Positions 2-13,839 of a DNA stretch of 64,000 nucleotides are shown here, piece by piece (within the stretch, counting starts at the first letter, position 1; each line of letters opens with the position of its first letter). The position numbers were made by a program, and so were the translations under genes. This DNA is from Spirosoma luteum DSM 19990 (lineage in GTDB: Bacteria; Bacteroidota; Bacteroidia; Cytophagales; Spirosomataceae), in NCBI RefSeq assembly GCF_000374065.1, contig NZ_KB893245.1, positions 930,001 to 994,000 of the forward strand, in the 5' to 3' direction. The notes under the pieces are model-generated. The model did not search any database and had not been told where the DNA came from. It was given only the letters and a program-made list of their open reading frames with translations.

Positions 2-2116
2 CGTACCTATCAGATCAAAGCCATTGAGGCCGTTGAAACTAAACTCCTCCGGGAACCCGGCGACCGCAAAGCACTGGTGGCCATGGCGACCGGCACGGGC
101 AAAACAAGAACAATTATCGGCCTGTGCTACCACCTGATCCAGACCAATCGGTTTAAACGCATTCTCTTTCTAGTCGATCGCACCCTGCTGGGCATCCAGG
201 CGATTAATGCCTTTAAAGACAACAAGGTCGTTGACCTGAGTACGTTTGCCGATATCTACGGGGTGAAGGAGTTGAAACAGGCCCTGCCCGATGCCGAAAC
301 CCGGCTCCAGTTTGCCACGGTACAGGGCATGGTGAAGCGGCTGTTCTATGCCGATGAGGAGGCCACTATGCCCACCGTCGATCAGTATGATTGCATCATC
401 ATCGATGAGGCCCACCGGGGGTATCTGCTCGATAAAGAAATAGATGAAGAGGGACTCAACTTCAAAAACCAGCAGGACTACGTCAGCAAGTACCGCATGG
501 TGCTGGACTATTTTGACGCCTACGCCATTGGGCTGACCGCTACCCCGGCCCTGCACACCACCGAAATCTTTGGCAAAGCCGTTTATACCTACTCCTACCG
601 TGAAGCCGTCATCGACGGGTATCTGATCGACCATGACCCACCCCACCTCATCAAAACGAAGTTAGGCGAAGAGGGTATCAAGTGGAAAGCCGGGGAAAAA
701 CCTACGGCGTTCGATCCGGAGAACAACGAGGTGGTGGAGCTGGACGAGCTGGAGGACGAGCTACAGTTCGACATCGAAGGATTTAATAAACGGGTGCTGA
801 ACGAGAGTTTTAACCGCACGGTGGTAAAGCGGCTGGTGCAGGAACTCGATCCCGACGGTGACGAAAAGACGCTGATCTTTGCCGCCAACGACATGCACGC
901 CGATACCATCGTGAATTTACTGAAAGAGGAATTCCGGGCCATCGGCCTGGCCATTCAGGACGATGCCATCCAGAAAATTACGGGCAAGTCCTACAATCCG
1001 CCGGAGCAGCTAAAACGCTACAAGAACGAGAAGTTTCCGACCATTGCCGTGACGGTCGATCTGTTGACGACCGGTATTGACGTACCAGCTATTTGTAACA
1101 TTGTCTTCATGCGCCGGGTCAAATCCCGGATTCTGTACGAGCAGATGCTGGGCCGGGCTACCCGCCGATGCGATGAGATCGGCAAGGAAATCTTTCAGAT
1201 CTACGATGCCGTCCGGCTTTACGAGGCCCTGGAAGATTATACCCAGATGAAACCAGTGGTGGTGAACCCCACCGCTACGTTTGAGCAGCTGGTGCACGAA
1301 CTACCGGCCATTGATTCGGAGGAGCGGGTGCAGGGGCAAATCGAACAGCTCATCGCCAAACTACAGCGTAAGAAGCACCGAATGACCAGCGACCACGAGG
1401 AATGGTTTAGCTACAATGCCGGCGGGCAACGCCCGGATGACTTTATCCAGTCGCTGCGGGAGCAACCCATTGCCCAAAGCCGGGAACAGCTGCCGAAGCT
1501 AGCCACGCTCTGGCGCTACCTGGACGAGCTGAAATTTGCAGGAAACCCGGTGTACGTATCTGAGCACGAAGATGAGTTTCTGGGCATGGAAACCGGCTAC
1601 GGGCGGGCCAGTAAACCAGCCGATTACCTGGACAGCTTCACCCGGTTCATCCAGGAGAATCAGAATAAAATTGCAGCCCTGAACATCGTTTGCACCCGGC
1701 CGGCCGAATTAAGCCGCCAGTCGTTAAAGGAATTATTGATAGCTTTGGCCCAGGATGGTTACCAGCCCAACGCGATAAAAGCCGCCTGGAAACAGGCCCG
1801 GAACGAAGACATTGGGGCCGACATTATTTCGATGATCCGAACGCTGGCCTTGGGCAGTACGCTGGAGAGCCACGAGGACAAGATCAAGAAGGCGGTCAAC
1901 AAGGTGCGCGCCATGCAGCCCTGGAACAAGGTGCAGCAAAAGTGGATCGACCGCTTTGAGAAGCAGCTATTGGCCGAAACGGTGTTGCAGGTAGATGACC
2001 TGGACGAATCGCCGTTTGCCGATGCGGGGGGCTTTACCCAACTTAACAAAGTGTTCGATAACCGGTTGGGCCAGGTTATCCAGACCATCAATTATCATTT
2101 GTACCAGCAGGCTTGA
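2..2116 (+). CDS. hsdR: Type I restriction enzyme subunit R (5' end outside window)
   Basis: This is the ATP-dependent translocase and DNA-cleaving subunit of a type I restriction-modification complex. The frame is open from base 2, so the start and the N-terminal nuclease domain lie upstream of the window. Visible are the Walker A motif ATGTGKT (about 86-106), the DEAH box in IIIDEAHRGY (404-415), the helicase motif LTATPA, and a second RecA-like domain with VDLLTTGIDVPA and QMLGRATR. The C-terminal part, including FADAGGFTQLNKVFDNRLG, resembles the EcoEI_R_C region of type IB-like HsdR proteins. hsdM and hsdS follow on the same strand, but a DUF559 gene bracketed by palindromes separates hsdR from hsdM. 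The identification is firm; the subtype is inferred. Confidence 0.96.
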   Translation, partial: RTYQIKAIEAVETKLLREPGDRKALVAMATGTGKTRTIIGLCYHLIQTNRFKRILFLVDRTLLGIQAINAFKDNKVVDLSTFADIYGVKELKQALPDAETRLQFATVQGMVKRLFYADEEATMPTVDQYDCIIIDEAHRGYLLDKEIDEEGLNFKNQQDYVSKYRMVLDYFDAYAIGLTATPALHTTEIFGKAVYTYSYREAVIDGYLIDHDPPHLIKTKLGEEGIKWKAGEKPTAFDPENNEVVELDELEDELQFDIEGFNKRVLNESFNRTVVKRLVQELDPDGDEKTLIFAANDMHADTIVNLLKEEFRAIGLAIQDDAIQKITGKSYNPPEQLKRYKNEKFPTIAVTVDLLTTGIDVPAICNIVFMRRVKSRILYEQMLGRATRRCDEIGKEIFQIYDAVRLYEALEDYTQMKPVVVNPTATFEQLVHELPAIDSEERVQGQIEQLIAKLQRKKHRMTSDHEEWFSYNAGGQRPDDFIQSLREQPIAQSREQLPKLATLWRYLDELKFAGNPVYVSEHEDEFLGMETGYGRASKPADYLDSFTRFIQENQNKIAALNIVCTRPAELSRQSLKELLIALAQDGYQPNAIKAAWKQARNEDIGADIISMIRTLALGSTLESHEDKIKKAVNKVRAMQPWNKVQQKWIDRFEKQLLAETVLQVDDLDESPFADAGGFTQLNKVFDNRLGQVIQTINYHLYQQA

Positions 2117-2132
2117 CAAGAAGATTGAAGGA

Positions 2133-2222
2133 ACCACCCCCAACCCCCTCCTAAAACAGGAGGGGGCTTTCCAGGGAAGCCCCTTTATAGCCCCCCTGTT
2201 TTAGGAGAGGGTTGGGGGTGGT
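2133..2222. repeat. Nested 90-bp palindromic repeat, copy 1
   Basis: The outer arms ACCACCCCCAACCCCCTCCT (from 2133) and its near-perfect reverse complement (ending at 2222) pair over about 28 bp with one mismatch. Each arm holds its own smaller palindrome, CCCCCTCCT-aaaac-AGGAGGGGG on the left. The repeat starts 17 bp after the hsdR stop codon and ends 33 bp before the DUF559 start. A second copy of the same architecture with a slightly different arm sequence lies at 2621-2711. The structure is directly visible. That it is a dispersed family in the genome is inference. Confidence 0.93.
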
Positions 2223-2255
2223 CAACACGCAAAACGTTAACCCACTTATGCGCCA

Positions 2256-2618
2256 ATGAGAACCGGCCAATTGAATAATCTAAACGTACTGATGCCTATC
2301 CGGAAGGAGTTGCGCAACAACGCTACAGAAAGTGAACAGTTCCTCTGGCAATTTCTAAAAGGAAATAAGTTGGCGGGCCGTAAATACAGGCGGCAGCATA
2401 GCATCGGATTGTTTATACTGGATTTTTACTGTCCATCCGAGCGGTTGGCTATTGAACTAGACGGAGCGGTGCATGATACTACCGACGCAAAACAACAGGA
2501 TGAAGACCGGCAAAAAGCCATTGAAGGACTATCGATTACCGTGCTGCGTTTTAAAAATGAAGCCGTTCTGAAAAACATTAATCAGGTGCTGGACGAGATA
2601 GAAAAGCATTTTAAATGA
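2256..2618 (+). CDS. DUF559 / Vsr-like endonuclease domain protein
   Basis: This 120-residue protein belongs to the DUF559 family, whose fold relates to very-short-patch-repair and PD-(D/E)XK endonucleases. Visible family signature: LRNNATESEQ (19-28), RKYRRQHSI (42-50), then FILDFYCPSERLAIELDGAVHD with acidic candidates Asp56, Glu67 and Asp69 and His73. An alternative start is ATG 2292 (MPIRKEL), which would give a more typical N-terminus; ATG 2248 is in another frame and stops at once. The gene is flanked on both sides by long nested palindromes, and its stop lies 2 bp before the second one. It interrupts the hsdR-hsdM order, so it is probably a passenger and not a subunit. Its biochemical role is unknown. 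Confidence 0.88.
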   Translation: MRTGQLNNLNVLMPIRKELRNNATESEQFLWQFLKGNKLAGRKYRRQHSIGLFILDFYCPSERLAIELDGAVHDTTDAKQQDEDRQKAIEGLSITVLRFKNEAVLKNINQVLDEIEKHFK

Positions 2619-2620
2619 GC

Positions 2621-2711
2621 ACCACCCCCTGCCCCCTCCTAAAACAGGAGGGAGTTCCAGCGGAACCCTCTTTTTTACCCCCTCCTGTTTTAGGAGGGGG
2701 CAGGGGGTGGT
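2621..2711. repeat. Nested 91-bp palindromic repeat, copy 2
   Basis: Arms of about 32 bp beginning ACCACCCCCTGCCCCCTCCT pair perfectly with the right end (about 2678-2711), and the inner CCCCCTCCT-aaaac-AGGAGGG palindrome is again nested in each arm. The repeat starts 2 bp after the DUF559 stop codon and ends 15 bp before the hsdM start, so any hsdR-to-hsdM transcript would carry it as a stable hairpin directly before hsdM. Arm sequences differ from copy 1 (CTGCC here, CAACC there), so the two are separate family members and not a target-site duplication. Confidence 0.93.
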
Positions 2712-2726
2712 AAAACCAACAAAACC

Positions 2727-4187
2727 ATGAGTGCCGAAGACATTGCCAATAAACTCTGGGGCCTGTGTAACCTCCTCCGCGACGATGGGGTGACCTACCA
2801 CCAGTATCTCAACGAGTTGACCTATATCCTGTTTCTGCGACTGTCGGAACTCAAGAAGTTTGAGGCCGATATTCCCGAAGAATACCGCTGGGGCAAACTG
2901 ACGGCCATCACCGACAATAAAGACCTGTTCGATACCTACCGCGAACTGCTGGCCACCATTTCGGCCAAGTCGGACAATGCAGCCGTGAAGGAGATTTACA
3001 CCAATGCCTCCACCACGCTGCGCAAGCCGGTCAACCTGAAATCACTGATCACCAGCATCAACGCCCTGAACTGGTACGATGAACACGAACAGGACAAGCT
3101 GGCCACCATTTACGAAGAGTTGCTGGAGAAAAACGCCGGGGAGAAGAAATCCGGGGCCGGGCAGTACTTCACCCCGCGCCCGCTGATCAACGTGATGGTA
3201 GAACTGCTGGCCCCGCGCCTGGGCGAACGCTGGAACGACCCCGCTGCTGGTACGTTCGGCTTTATGATTGCCGCCAATGAATATCTGCGCCAAAAGAACG
3301 ACGATTACTACGACCTCGACATCACCGCCCGGACGTTTCAGGTGAACGAAGCCTTCAGCGGTTGCGAACTGGTGCAGGATGCACACCGGCTGGCCCTGAT
3401 GAATGCCAAACTGCACGGCCTGGAAAGTCCTATCTACCTCGGCGACACGCTCTCCGAACTGGGCAAAAGCTTCCGTAATTACGATGGGGTGCTGGCCAAC
3501 CCGCCATTTGGGACCAAGCAGGGGGGCGAACGCCCTTCGCGCGATGATCTGACGTACCTGAGCAGCAACAAGCAGCTCAACTTTTTGCAACATATCTACC
3601 GCTCCCTGCACAAACGCGGGGGCGCGCGGGCGGCCGTAGTGCTGCCCGATAACGTCTTATTTGAAGATGGCGACGGCCGCAAAATCCGGCGCGATTTGAT
3701 GGATAAGTGCAACCTGCACACCATTCTGCGCCTGCCAACGGGCATTTTCTACGCGGCTGGTGTAAAAACCAACGTGCTGTTTTTTGAACGAGGCACTTCG
3801 GAGACGGGCAATACGCAGAAGGTCTGGTTTTACGACATGCGGACCAACGCGCCCAGCTACGGCAAGCGCACACCCTTTACGCGGGCTGCTTTTGCCGATT
3901 TTGCTCGGGCCTACACCGGGGGTATTGACCTTGCCGACCTGAGCGACAATTATGACGGCACCATCGACCACGCCAAACGGGCCACCGTAACCGACGAACG
4001 CTTCAGCTGCCTTACCCGCGAGCAGATTACGGCCAAGAACGACTCGCTGGATCTGGGCCTGATTGCCGACGACAGCCACAGTACCGGCACCGACGATGCC
4101 GAGCCACTCGACATTGCCCGCGAAGCCGCCAATGAATTGAAGGCAATGCACCTTGAATTAGAAAAGATTATTGAACTGCTGGGATGA
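2727..4187 (+). CDS. hsdM: Type I restriction-modification DNA methyltransferase subunit M
   Basis: HsdM transfers a methyl group from S-adenosylmethionine to adenine N6 in the target chosen by HsdS, and with HsdR forms the restriction complex. Seen: an N-terminal helical HsdM_N domain, GQYFTPR (about 145-151), the SAM-binding motif DPAAGTFG (171-178) and the catalytic motif IV NPPF (258-261). The length of 486 residues is normal. ATG 2727 is the first start after the palindrome ending at 2711, and no Shine-Dalgarno is seen. The stop overlaps the hsdS start in an ATGA arrangement, which indicates translational coupling. Confidence 0.97.
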   Translation: MSAEDIANKLWGLCNLLRDDGVTYHQYLNELTYILFLRLSELKKFEADIPEEYRWGKLTAITDNKDLFDTYRELLATISAKSDNAAVKEIYTNASTTLRKPVNLKSLITSINALNWYDEHEQDKLATIYEELLEKNAGEKKSGAGQYFTPRPLINVMVELLAPRLGERWNDPAAGTFGFMIAANEYLRQKNDDYYDLDITARTFQVNEAFSGCELVQDAHRLALMNAKLHGLESPIYLGDTLSELGKSFRNYDGVLANPPFGTKQGGERPSRDDLTYLSSNKQLNFLQHIYRSLHKRGGARAAVVLPDNVLFEDGDGRKIRRDLMDKCNLHTILRLPTGIFYAAGVKTNVLFFERGTSETGNTQKVWFYDMRTNAPSYGKRTPFTRAAFADFARAYTGGIDLADLSDNYDGTIDHAKRATVTDERFSCLTREQITAKNDSLDLGLIADDSHSTGTDDAEPLDIAREAANELKAMHLELEKIIELLG

Positions 4188-5668
4188 TGGAAAATGAATT
4201 GCCAGAAGGGTGGATATTAGCCAAAGTCAATGAATACTTTGAATTGGTAAAAGATAAAATTGAACCCGCTGAAAACACGTCGCTTTCATATGTCGGCTTA
4301 GAGCACTTAATGAAAGGCGGTGGAATTGACGTGACTGGAAATTCAGATGAATTGAAAAGTACAAAATCTGTTTTTCAGAAGGGCGATGTGTTATATGGAA
4401 AGTTAAGACCTTATCTGAATAAACATGCTTTTGTAAATTTTAATGGCGTTTGCTCGACAGATATTCTTGTTTTTAGATCAAAAGAAAATTCTAATAACAA
4501 ATATTTAAATTATTACTTAGGAACGACTGAAGTAATAAGTTATGCAAATGAAAATTCGCAAGGAATAAATCTGCCAAGAGTTTCAGGGACAATAATGGGT
4601 AATTTAGAAATTCCTCTCCCACCCCTTGCCGAGCAAACCCGCATTGTTGCCAAGTTAGATACGGCCTTTGGTCATTTGGAGACGCTGAAAATGGGCTTAG
4701 CCCGCATTCCTGAACTTCTCAAGAAATTCCGCCAAACCGTTCTCACTCAAGCTGTAACGGGGAAATTGACGGAAGAGTGGCGAGAGGAGAATCCTCATAC
4801 AGAAGATTCTAAAATACTACTTGATAGAATCTTTGAGTATAAACAAGAATGGGCAATAGGTGAAGCTTTAAAGGGTAATTCTGAAGCAAGAAGACTATTA
4901 AGTAGACTTAAGCATGCGAAGGAAATTTCCCCTGAAAACATTCCGGATAAGTGGCTACTTGGATCACTATACGATGTCTGTCATTTAGTGGTAGATTGCC
5001 ACAACAAAACGGCACCATATGAGCCATCTGGAATATACTTAGTAAGAACTACGAATGTAAAAAATGGTCAGATAATCTTAGAAGATATAAGATACATTTC
5101 GGAAGAAACTTATGATTATTGGGCACGGAGATGTCCCCCAATGCCAGGTGATATAATCTTCACAAGGGAAGCACCTATGGGCGAAGCAGCAATAATACCT
5201 GATAACATGCAAATCTGTTTAGGACAGAGGACTATGCTGTTGAGAATGCCAGGTAATTTACTGTTAAACAAGTATTTGCTTTACACATTACTTGCTCCAA
5301 CCATGAATAACCAAATAAAAGATAAAGCGGTTGGAATGGGGGTCGAGCATCTACGAGTAGGTGATGTTGAATCATTAATGATTCCACTACCTCCCCTCGA
5401 AGAACAACAAGTAATCGTCAATCGGGTAGAAGCGTTATTTGCCAAATCGGATGCCATCGAAGCGCAGTACCAGTCGCTGAAAGCAAAGATTGACCAACTG
5501 CCGCAGGCGTTACTGGCCAAAGCCTTCCGGGGCGAGTTGGTGCAACAAGATCCCACCGATGAACCAGCCTCGGTGCTGCTGGAGAAAATAAAGGGATTAA
5601 CGGAAGCTGTCGGGGGCAAAAAGAAAACCAAAGCCGGGCAAACGTCGCTGGCGTTTATGGAGGAGTAG
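4184..5668 (+). CDS. hsdS: Type I restriction enzyme specificity subunit S
   Basis: HsdS recognises the bipartite DNA target through two target-recognition domains (TRDs). It has 494 residues. The conserved spacers are visible: the central repeat with IPLPPLAEQTRIVAKLD (about 145-160) followed by a helical linker and LTQAVTGKLTEEWREE, and the C-terminal repeat with IPLPPLEEQQVIVNRVE followed by LLAKAFRGELV. The TRD stretches (about 4190-4610 and 4790-5385) are clearly AT-richer than the conserved segments and than hsdM, which fits replacement of TRDs by recombination. It overlaps hsdM by 4 bp. Target specificity cannot be read from the sequence. Confidence 0.96.
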   Translation: MMENELPEGWILAKVNEYFELVKDKIEPAENTSLSYVGLEHLMKGGGIDVTGNSDELKSTKSVFQKGDVLYGKLRPYLNKHAFVNFNGVCSTDILVFRSKENSNNKYLNYYLGTTEVISYANENSQGINLPRVSGTIMGNLEIPLPPLAEQTRIVAKLDTAFGHLETLKMGLARIPELLKKFRQTVLTQAVTGKLTEEWREENPHTEDSKILLDRIFEYKQEWAIGEALKGNSEARRLLSRLKHAKEISPENIPDKWLLGSLYDVCHLVVDCHNKTAPYEPSGIYLVRTTNVKNGQIILEDIRYISEETYDYWARRCPPMPGDIIFTREAPMGEAAIIPDNMQICLGQRTMLLRMPGNLLLNKYLLYTLLAPTMNNQIKDKAVGMGVEHLRVGDVESLMIPLPPLEEQQVIVNRVEALFAKSDAIEAQYQSLKAKIDQLPQALLAKAFRGELVQQDPTDEPASVLLEKIKGLTEAVGGKKKTKAGQTSLAFMEE

Positions 5669-12973: not shown

Positions 12974-13588
12974 TTAAATTAACTCTTTTACCGCTTTTGA
13001 AATCCGTCGTTTTACTTCAGGCCACGTAATGCCTTTCAGTACTATCGGATCCGCCTGGGCTTCAGCATCATCAAAGTAGGTCAGGGAGCGAACCACATAC
13101 CCTTGATCGCTATTGGTGTATTTTAATTTAAAAAGTTGAAGCATCTGCTCCAGCGTAAAATGATTGAGCAATTCGGCCATGTCCCAGAAACCTTTTTTTG
13201 CACCCCGCCCACTAACGGCCCCTAGTTTCATGGCAATCACATCATCAACTGACCAAAGTCGGATAGCTGTTTCTTCCGTAAAGTCAACCAATAGCGGATA
13301 ACGATGAGCCAGCAGATTAACTTTTACCATGTCAATCATCAGGCTAAGTGTATTTTTTCCTTCGTCCGTTTTAACAATTCCGGGAAAATAGCTTACCAGT
13401 TCGTCAAATACGTCTGCTTCCGAAAAAGACTGATTGGTGAATAAATCAAGGTCGATTGATAACCGGTGCCCGTACCGCAGTGAAAGGTTTGTGCCACCAG
13501 CCAAAGCGAATTGGTTAAGTGTAGGCAATTGCATAAGCTTTTTTAAGAGTTCCAGGGTAGCGGGTTTGACTGTTGCCGTTTGTAGCAT
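12974..13588 (-). CDS. AbiEii/AbiGii-type nucleotidyltransferase toxin
   Basis: A 204-residue protein of the AbiEii (DUF1814) family, toxins of type IV-like abortive infection and toxin-antitoxin systems that act as nucleotidyltransferases. Catalytic features seen: GGTNLSLRYGH (31-41) and the metal-binding SIDLDLF with Asp46 and Asp48, then the characteristic VDDVIAMKLGAVSGRGAKKG and a downstream WDMAELL segment. The start at 13588 lies inside the upstream antitoxin-like gene in another frame, so the two genes overlap by 46 bp. It is last in a minus-strand group with a DUF6922-like gene and nuclease fragments. Confidence 0.9.
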   Translation of the reverse strand: MLQTATVKPATLELLKKLMQLPTLNQFALAGGTNLSLRYGHRLSIDLDLFTNQSFSEADVFDELVSYFPGIVKTDEGKNTLSLMIDMVKVNLLAHRYPLLVDFTEETAIRLWSVDDVIAMKLGAVSGRGAKKGFWDMAELLNHFTLEQMLQLFKLKYTNSDQGYVVRSLTYFDDAEAQADPIVLKGITWPEVKRRISKAVKELI

Positions 13589-13839
13589 CGAAACTGATCG
13601 GGAGTAAGATCAAATATAGTGCAACAGAAGGAAAGCGTTTTCTTCTTGAGATAGGCTGCCTGAGTAATCTCTGTTTTTACGCGTTCATGACCGTAATAGC
13701 GTAATACCTCCAGCATATCGTCCCACAAGCCGTAGTTCATCACTTTTTCAATGATAAACCGGGCGTTGGTCTCGTAATCGAGCGATTGCATATCTACATC
13801 CCAAAATGCAGTGGGAGAGAGCGTGGGTATCGTATTCAT
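13543..13839 (-). CDS. DUF6922-like antitoxin of the AbiEii pair
   Basis: 98 residues, starting MNTIPTLSPTAFWDVDMQSL, with FIIEKVMNYGLWDDMLEVLR then YYGHERVKTEITQAAYLKKK. This is the pattern of a family (DUF6922) regularly found directly upstream of AbiEii-type toxins in Bacteroidota and presumed to be the antitoxin. The long 46-bp overlap with the toxin and the ATGA overlap with the small upstream frame point to coupled translation. No DNA-binding motif is obvious. The antitoxin role is inferred from position and family. Confidence 0.78.
   Translation of the reverse strand: MNTIPTLSPTAFWDVDMQSLDYETNARFIIEKVMNYGLWDDMLEVLRYYGHERVKTEITQAAYLKKKTLSFCCTIFDLTPDQFRCYKRQQSNPLPWNS

Follow-up and report, generated by a model that had tools for sequence, protein, structure and literature searches.

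Bacterial genomes commonly contain short palindromic repeats, and the locus described here raises the question of what ties such repeats to a particular gene. In the window (the whole stretch of 64,000 nucleotides that was analysed), two nested palindromes enclose a small gene of the DUF559 family inside a type I restriction-modification operon (Table 1), and it is asked below whether the gene and the palindromes belong together, how the unit came to lie there and what the gene product might do to the palindromes.

The unit in the hsd operon and its predicted nuclease

The preliminary description of this DNA had reported a palindrome, a DUF559 gene and a second palindrome as one unit between hsdR and hsdM, and the arrangement is real, as judged from coordinates, Pfam matches and folding z-scores; the spacing of 2 bp between the stop of the gene and palindrome 2 is also correct (TGA ends at 2618, the palindrome starts at 2621). 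The z-scores refer to folding as single-stranded DNA, in which none of 200 shuffles of either palindrome folded equally well. The outer arms of palindrome 1 read ACCACCCCCAA.../...GGGGGTGGT, and each contains an inner hairpin, CCCCCTCCT-AAAAC-AGGAGGGGG, whose right-arm copy is degenerate. The hairpin CCCCCTCCT-loop-AGGAGGGGG, designated class A, is found once within every palindrome arm of the unit, and the arms at 2133-2166 and 2678-2711 each form, alone, a 9-bp hairpin with a 5-nt loop. The core CCTAAAACAGGAGG, with at most two mismatches, has exactly four sites in the window, all of them in these arms, and 0.56 were expected. The earlier view of the two palindromes as separate family members has to be given up: they form one family, with core, loop and outer ACCACCCCC in common, and arms of palindrome 1 pair with arms of palindrome 2 at 88-94%.

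Table 1. Features of the unit and of its host operon (window positions)
Feature	Position	Strand	Basis
hsdR, host gene, 3' part in window	2..2116	+	Pfam EcoEI_R_C, ResIII
Left linker, hsdR stop to palindrome 1, 16 bp	2117..2132	.	Sequence; counterpart absent in G126, G103
Nested palindrome 1	2133..2222	.	Arms 2133-2164/2191-2222, 94% complementary; z -8.3
Inner class-A hairpin, left arm of palindrome 1	2144..2166	+	Sequence; folds alone
DUF559 (PF04480) gene, ATG 2256 to TGA 2618, 120 aa	2256..2618	+	Pfam, alignment, model
Nested palindrome 2, same class as palindrome 1	2621..2711	.	Arms 2621-2655/2677-2711, 97% complementary; z -10.8
Inner class-A hairpin, right arm of palindrome 2	2678..2700	+	Sequence; folds alone
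Right linker, palindrome 2 to hsdM start, 15 bp	2712..2726	.	Sequence
hsdM, host gene	2727..4187	+	Pfam N6_Mtase, HsdM_N
hsdS, host gene	4184..5668	+	Pfam Methylase_S

The DUF559 protein of the window matches PF04480 with E = 5.7e-31 and 107 bits (gathering cut-off 20.6), its structure model has a pLDDT of 85.8, and it looks like an intact predicted nuclease of the Vsr/EDxHD type with a PD-(D/E)XK-like fold. The Pfam match and the predicted fold agree with the earlier description of a PD-(D/E)XK/Vsr-like protein in the position of the Y1 transposase. The nearest solved folds, by structure and by profile, are NGO0050 (3hrl) and the homing endonuclease I-Bth0305I (3r3p), the catalytic domain of the latter being recovered with a profile E of 6.6e-5 and a Foldseek E of 7e-4 (TM 0.73 on target); I-Bth0305I is described as a dimer with a long target (PMC3943268). 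In an alignment of 48 DUF559 proteins, E27, D56 and D69 do not vary and H73 almost never does, which makes them candidate active-site residues, the invariance at residues 53-60 being inflated by the use of FILDFYCP as one search peptide. Their spacing equals that of E73, D102, D115 and H119 in Caulobacter VsrA, as given in PMC12907096. Elsewhere in the window, positions 12974-13839 hold two overlapping minus-strand ORFs of 204 and 98 aa, the longer of which resembles, by eye, an AbiEii-type nucleotidyltransferase.

Association of DUF559 genes with C-rich palindromes

A DUF559 match is present in 69 of 150 genomes of the family (that of the window included), with 105 matches overall and a single one in the window genome. 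Sixty of the 105 were taken, comprising 50 stand-alone genes (at least 89 bits, frame of at most 225 codons), 8 in long frames and 2 partial ones, and two stand-alone copies with broken frames were excluded from arm scoring and from the protein tree, leaving 48. A motif-free search found 1.225 inverted repeats per kb within 250 bp of the 50 stand-alone genes (30 repeats, at 24 loci) and 0.121 per kb at 4-8 kb, and the repeats were C-rich in 32 of 35 cases within 500 bp of DUF559 as against 7 of 77 beyond. Inverted arms across the gene, with a score of at least 14, bracket 26 of the 48 DUF559 genes; segments taken at random reach that score in 4 of 792 cases and neighbouring genes in 5 of 394. 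The genomes are related, so that p-values overstate independence. Mismatched flanks, with upstream and downstream sides from different loci, pair in 124 of 2234 combinations because classes are common to loci. Within 320 bp, 44 of the 50 genes have a C-rich hairpin of some class, compared with 18 of 1908 random windows and 6 of 394 other genes (1 of 120 when these are at most 600 bp long), a count that is partly circular, as classes A-E were derived from the flanks themselves, whereas the arm scores are motif-free.

Hairpins stand on both sides of 21 of the 50 genes, only upstream of 9, only downstream of 14 and on neither side of 6. The gene can sit within a single palindrome, in the order arm-gene-arm (L155, L161, L196), or between two full palindromes as in the window (L185, L190). 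The neighbours are mostly co-oriented with DUF559 (left 36/44, right 32/46, both 27/42), and this, together with the in-frame copies described below, is consistent with dependence on host transcription and sometimes translation. Units at L152, L153, L162, L165, L196 and probably at further loci seem, by eye, to share one pair of co-oriented host genes as neighbours across genera. At L172 (G002 C12:931897-932298), palindrome hairpins recur every 127 bp next to DUF559, and one 127-bp unit is missing in G038.

Loci outside the family were picked by protein similarity alone (best 80 of 126), and the removal of 6 without enough flank and of 2 long frames left 72 (frame of at most 300 codons). Inverted arms bracket 50 of these 72 genes compared with 9 of 1864 control segments, 47 of the 1864 coming from the two excluded long-frame loci, and hits fall in 8 named phyla; in the remaining 22 stand-alone genes, the inverted arms stay below threshold. 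By phylum, the arm-bracketed genes are 36/46 in Bacteroidota, 5/8 in Cyanobacteriota, 3/7 among unassigned loci and 1/1 each in Acidobacteriota, Armatimonadota, Nitrospirota and three candidate phyla, and five further phyla with one locus each had no inverted arms. A shorter-span inverted-repeat scan of the same 80 loci, which found arms in a minority only, is replaced by this longer-span scan. None of five DUF559 loci from a plasmid collection, E. coli and N. gonorrhoeae included, reaches the arm threshold (scores 8-12), though the Neisseria gene has C-rich repeats on both sides. DUF559 genes are thus flanked by palindromes far oftener than other genes, a point that the preliminary description had put up for testing, both within the family and outside it, and the link between DUF559 and its cognate palindromes is close to certain. 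A literature search, incomplete in coverage and not extending to ycjD or box C, found no paper on this link; in a study of Legionella evolution, segments with a transposase and DUF559 are named among recombination hotspots (PMC12308824).

The hairpins fall into five classes by core: A (CCTCCT), B (CTCTCC), C (CTCCCC), D (CCCT) and E (CTCAAGAG). On a maximum-likelihood tree of the 48 proteins, class changes 8 times, compared with a mean of 23.1 after shuffling and with no value as low in 200 shuffles; 42 of the 48 proteins have a class, the 6 classless ones are uncounted, and L183, with hairpins of two classes, was treated as class A. Where a genome has more than one DUF559 gene, classes are combined (G054 has A, B, D and D; G080 has A, C and D; G131 has A and B), and the proteins of these genomes are spread over the tree, mostly beside same-class ones, with L156 (G054, class B) loosely placed.

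Copy number follows DUF559 presence, as had been put forward for testing, and does so class-specifically. At least five class-A hairpins occur in 9 of 17 genomes with a class-A DUF559, in 2 of 52 with another DUF559 and in 2 of 81 with none, and the corresponding figures for class B are 14/15, 13/54 and 6/81; these include assignments made by eye, of G013, G039 and G049 to class A and of seven genomes with in-frame copies to class B (G117 being judged on its translated arms alone), and DUF559-flanking hairpins are counted throughout. With regex-assigned stand-alone genomes alone, the fractions become 9/14, 2/55 and 2/81 for class A and 7/8, 20/61 and 6/81 for class B. Reversed control patterns gave 0-2 per genome among the matches listed. 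The highest loads are 212 class-A hairpins in G016 and 103 class-B hairpins in G065, many of those listed for the latter sharing their CGT loop with the arms of its in-frame DUF559, and the window genome has 7 class-A hairpins. Exceptions with hairpins and no DUF559 match are G008 (13 B), G077 (18 B) and G023 (11 A), the assemblies of G077 and G023 being incomplete.

Gene-less copies are dispersed as REPIN-like inverted doublets with a spacer: in G002, at least two hairpins were counted in 12 of the 14 palindrome clusters that were read, and paired hairpin spacings are seen in G016, G052 and G065. Terminal inverted repeats round a gene thus coexist with gene-less copies, as in TIR/MITE pairs. 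The distribution of class on the tree and the class-specific copy number strongly suggest that DUF559 recognises the palindromes and spreads them. Association, class co-variation and the insertion polymorphism described below are shown by sequence, and cleavage and movement by DUF559 are putative steps.

Occupied, empty and in-frame sites

Both close hsd operons lack the unit, with hsdR-hsdM gaps of 3 bp in G126 (HsdM 88%) and 4 bp in G103 (89%); six distant HsdM matches (49-50%) were read upstream of hsdM only, had no hsdR end there and are uncounted. These empty junctions, which the preliminary description had named as a test, indicate that the unit was gained at, or lost from, the window junction. 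A fixed component of the type I restriction-modification operon was rejected on these two operons. Of the three outcomes that the preliminary description had named as refutation (DUF559 genes elsewhere free of palindromes, palindromes as frequent in genomes lacking DUF559, a unit fixed in the operon), none was observed.

Close DUF559 relatives (G131, G004, G039) sit between a gene X and ksgA. Of 30 ksgA loci, 5 had an end of X that a script could identify and 4 more had one that was identified by eye. At the X-ksgA junction, the unit is present in G131, in G004 and, in decayed form, in G039; nothing lies there in G106, G143 and G187, and the junction holds a palindrome lacking the gene in G098, a remnant of one in G175 and other sequence in G173. 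Over 17 kb compared between G002 and G038 (91% identical), all three gene-less palindrome sites are common to both genomes, with no presence/absence difference; loops and spacers are exchanged and the interior orientation is inverted, a pattern that resembles conversion and inversion more than fresh insertion and tells against simple mobility. The sequence comparisons established no target-site duplication, the empty sites being too diverged for boundaries and G002/G038 offering no clean pair, and they showed no excision or transposition event. Unrelated nested-palindrome families (e.g. GTAAAATGTATAATG..., GAAAGAGTGAAAGAGCG...) were noticed at L296 13339-13454 and 8633-8892 (G002), L191, L186 and L162, and two repeat copies of such families in G002 are missing at the matching G038 site.

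Some DUF559 units lie, unexpectedly, in frame inside host genes, a placement that the preliminary description had not noticed, any more than that of the gene within a single palindrome. Hosts of the long-frame copies, eight of which were read by Pfam, include IleRS, MetH, UvrA, methylmalonyl-CoA mutase, a PDDEXK_1 protein and an intein in a DNA methyltransferase, and another in-frame copy lies, by eye, at the junction of two CoA-transferase subunits. Inverted arms are present in 19 of 20 in-frame copies and in 0 of 528 control segments, the 20 being 17 from the family-genome matches plus L235, L245 and L250, with the host of L100 unread and the RecQ-linked L246 and L239 (arm scores 25 and 30) left out. 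When 8 long-frame loci were tested by ORF borders, a class hairpin was found at 1 and an inverted repeat within 250 bp at 2. Translated, the arms give Pro/Ser/Gly-rich linkers such as PHPQPLSRGEGG. An IleRS query from G024 matched in 147 of the 150 genomes, and among 30 IleRS loci read, 6 from five genera have the module at the same loop, 23 are plain (82-91 residues) and 1 is ambiguous; a Pfam scan of the IleRS copy L104 found no intein domain. The mixture of occupied and plain IleRS loops is compatible with homing into an empty allele, as far as sequence comparison can tell.

At L245 (G158, a cyanobacterium), a DUF559 with C-rich arms lies within a DNA methyltransferase intein, and DUF559 is listed among the intein genes of a cyanobacterium in PMC9403480. 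At L246 and L239 (G166, G167), a DUF559 unit stands immediately before the frame of a RecQ-like helicase (by eye), and at L246 the frame continues through the palindrome into the helicase.

Putative mechanism, alternatives and related systems

Taken together, these observations make it probable that the segment 2133-2711 is one copy of a selfish system in which the Vsr/EDxHD-fold nuclease DUF559 would drive the spread of its cognate nested palindromes. DUF559 would bind and nick or cut a hairpin arm of its own class, either extruded as a cruciform or exposed as single-stranded DNA at the replication fork, and repair would use another copy as template, so that the palindrome, alone or together with the gene, is placed in the cut or at a new site. 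Gene-carrying and gene-less forms could then both spread in a homing-like manner; the gene would lean on host transcription and at times on host translation, and readable arms may make insertion into operons and ORFs tolerable.

A different role for the enzyme, in which it handles the palindromes rather than spreading them, as a Vsr-like repair or resolving nickase for cruciforms and mismatches that palindrome-rich cells need and that would therefore stay with them, is rather unlikely. It would agree with the Vsr-type fold, with Caulobacter VsrA, a DUF559 protein proposed as a mismatch-repair enzyme and tied to mismatch repair and SOS (PMC12907096), with the exchange of loops and spacers at orthologous palindromes, which repair or conversion would give, and with a copy number that tracks the gene. 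It does not account for the arms on either side of the gene itself in 50 of the 72 outside loci, for the units in frame in IleRS, MetH and UvrA, or for one and the same site being sporadically empty or occupied. A homing endonuclease for which palindromes dispersed by another agent are only landing sites, to be cut and then occupied by a copy of its gene, would fit the sequence and fold kinship to I-Bth0305I, the one DUF559 copy within an intein and the 9 of 50 loci with one hairpin on each side of the gene. Such a visitor is very unlikely, since hairpin class tracks the clade of the protein, the copy number of a class goes with the matching protein and no other mobiliser was found, only 4 of 30 Y1 loci carrying a C-rich hairpin, the same short one in each case, in G000.

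The remaining alternatives make DUF559 incidental. That the palindromes are transcription terminators or mRNA stabilisers accompanying small operon genes is suggested by their strong hairpins, many of them intergenic, and is highly improbable in view of the matched small genes, of which only the single one noted above carries such a hairpin, and of the hairpins on both sides of 21 of the 50 genes and in frame inside ORFs; the terminator hypothesis was rejected on the small-gene control. The palindromes might also be REPINs of a RAYT (Y1 transposase), with DUF559 as a bystander, an explanation that is largely refuted and retains next to no probability. The doublet architecture is that of REPINs (PMC3116915), and 10 of 11 genomes examined have Y1_Tnp matches; G106, however, has 44 class-A hairpins and no Y1_Tnp match, 26 of the 30 Y1 loci lack these hairpins and no GTAG tag was found in the arms read. 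RAYTs are therefore not needed for the palindromes, and mobilisation by them was rejected on G106 and the 30 Y1 loci. G000, the window genome, has 12 Y1_Tnp matches, and a short GCCCTTTAGGGC hairpin lies close to the four copies that were examined.

In behaviour, the units look most like known RAYT systems. RAYTs cut single-stranded REP hairpins, and the spread of these is attributed to them (PMC3733652, PMC8266576, PMC3116915). In REPtrons and REPINs with their RAYT (TnpA-REP), in TIRtrons (TIRYT) and in the units described here, usually a single gene for a DNA-cleaving enzyme (a predicted nuclease in the present case) is flanked by palindromes, gene-less palindromes are dispersed as inverted hairpin doublets, and enzyme and class go together. 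REPtrons have an HUH/Y1 enzyme and a GTAG tag, whereas the product of the window gene is a PF04480 protein with a PD-(D/E)XK-like fold and the arms are C-rich, begin with ACCACCCCC or similar and, where read by eye, bear no GTAG tag; in-frame insertion into housekeeping ORFs also sets the DUF559 units apart. The likeness to REP/REPIN-RAYT systems drawn at the outset is thus apt as an analogy and fails as membership: the unit is no REPtron, since enzyme and tag differ, and by comparison looks REPtron-like in behaviour. CGTC-tagged REPs were ruled out as the same family, as their stems are 8-9 bp, start with A/T and have other tags (PMC3733652); for this large set of repeats, that survey found no dedicated enzyme.

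With EDxHD homing endonucleases such as I-Bth0305I, the units have in common a sequence and fold kinship, the sporadic occupation of a conserved gene and the presence of DUF559 in inteins, and they differ in that no intron was seen, an intein was present in one case read, and the gene has flanking palindromes of its own and gene-less copies. Rickettsia palindromic elements likewise lie in frame within protein genes, and in the available part of PMC10969869 no nuclease module is described for them. The Vsr endonucleases, Caulobacter VsrA included, have the fold in common with DUF559, and the candidate E, D, D and H residues stand at VsrA spacing; Vsr nicks DNA at mismatches (PMC12907096). E. 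coli Vsr is partnered with a cytosine methyltransferase, whereas the partner of DUF559 is a palindrome family.

The evidence suggests that DUF559 units are a hitherto unrecognised kind of selfish DNA. More tentatively, with chances a little short of even, DUF559 nucleases may be the founding enzymes of a separate prokaryotic class of selfish DNA, which would cut hairpins, disperse its own palindromes, leave gene-less REPIN-like copies and lodge in frame (IleRS, MetH, UvrA) as a translated, non-spliced passenger. If true, a widespread second enzyme family with palindromes of matching class would mean that something other than a RAYT can drive palindromic repeats, and a role would be assigned to a domain still named DUF559. 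A nuclease module inside core enzymes, apparently unspliced, also bears on how proteins acquire insertions.

A possible further case is ycjD of E. coli K-12 (b1289; NC_000913.3 1351407-1351760, L381), a DUF559 gene between sapF and fabI. A 370-bp query taken from behind ycjD matched in 5375 of 5426 genomes, at a median of 17 places per genome, and its repeated core is about 57 bp long and C-rich; presumably it resembles the box C repeats of E. coli. Like the palindromes of the DUF559 units, the repeat is C-rich, hairpin-like and dispersed, with one of its roughly 17 copies per genome directly behind the DUF559 gene; unlike them, it lies downstream only, with no inverted arms across ycjD at threshold. 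Among 60 of 5401 records sampled across the spread (1 small record dropped), the median is 20 places for the 37 ycjD+ records and 5 for the 22 ycjD- records, a difference confounded by phylogroup. If the proposal holds, ycjD and the scattered C-rich repeats of E. coli would be one such system, the repeats would gain a candidate mobiliser, and the presence of both in K-12 makes the idea open to test in E. coli. No clean empty site was found between sapF and fabI, two ycjD- strains having efflux-type genes (eef in O157 Sakai) beside sapF or fabI in place of ycjD. Matches in Azospirillum comprise 33 plasmid records for the E. coli repeat downstream of ycjD and 8 records for the protein of the window.
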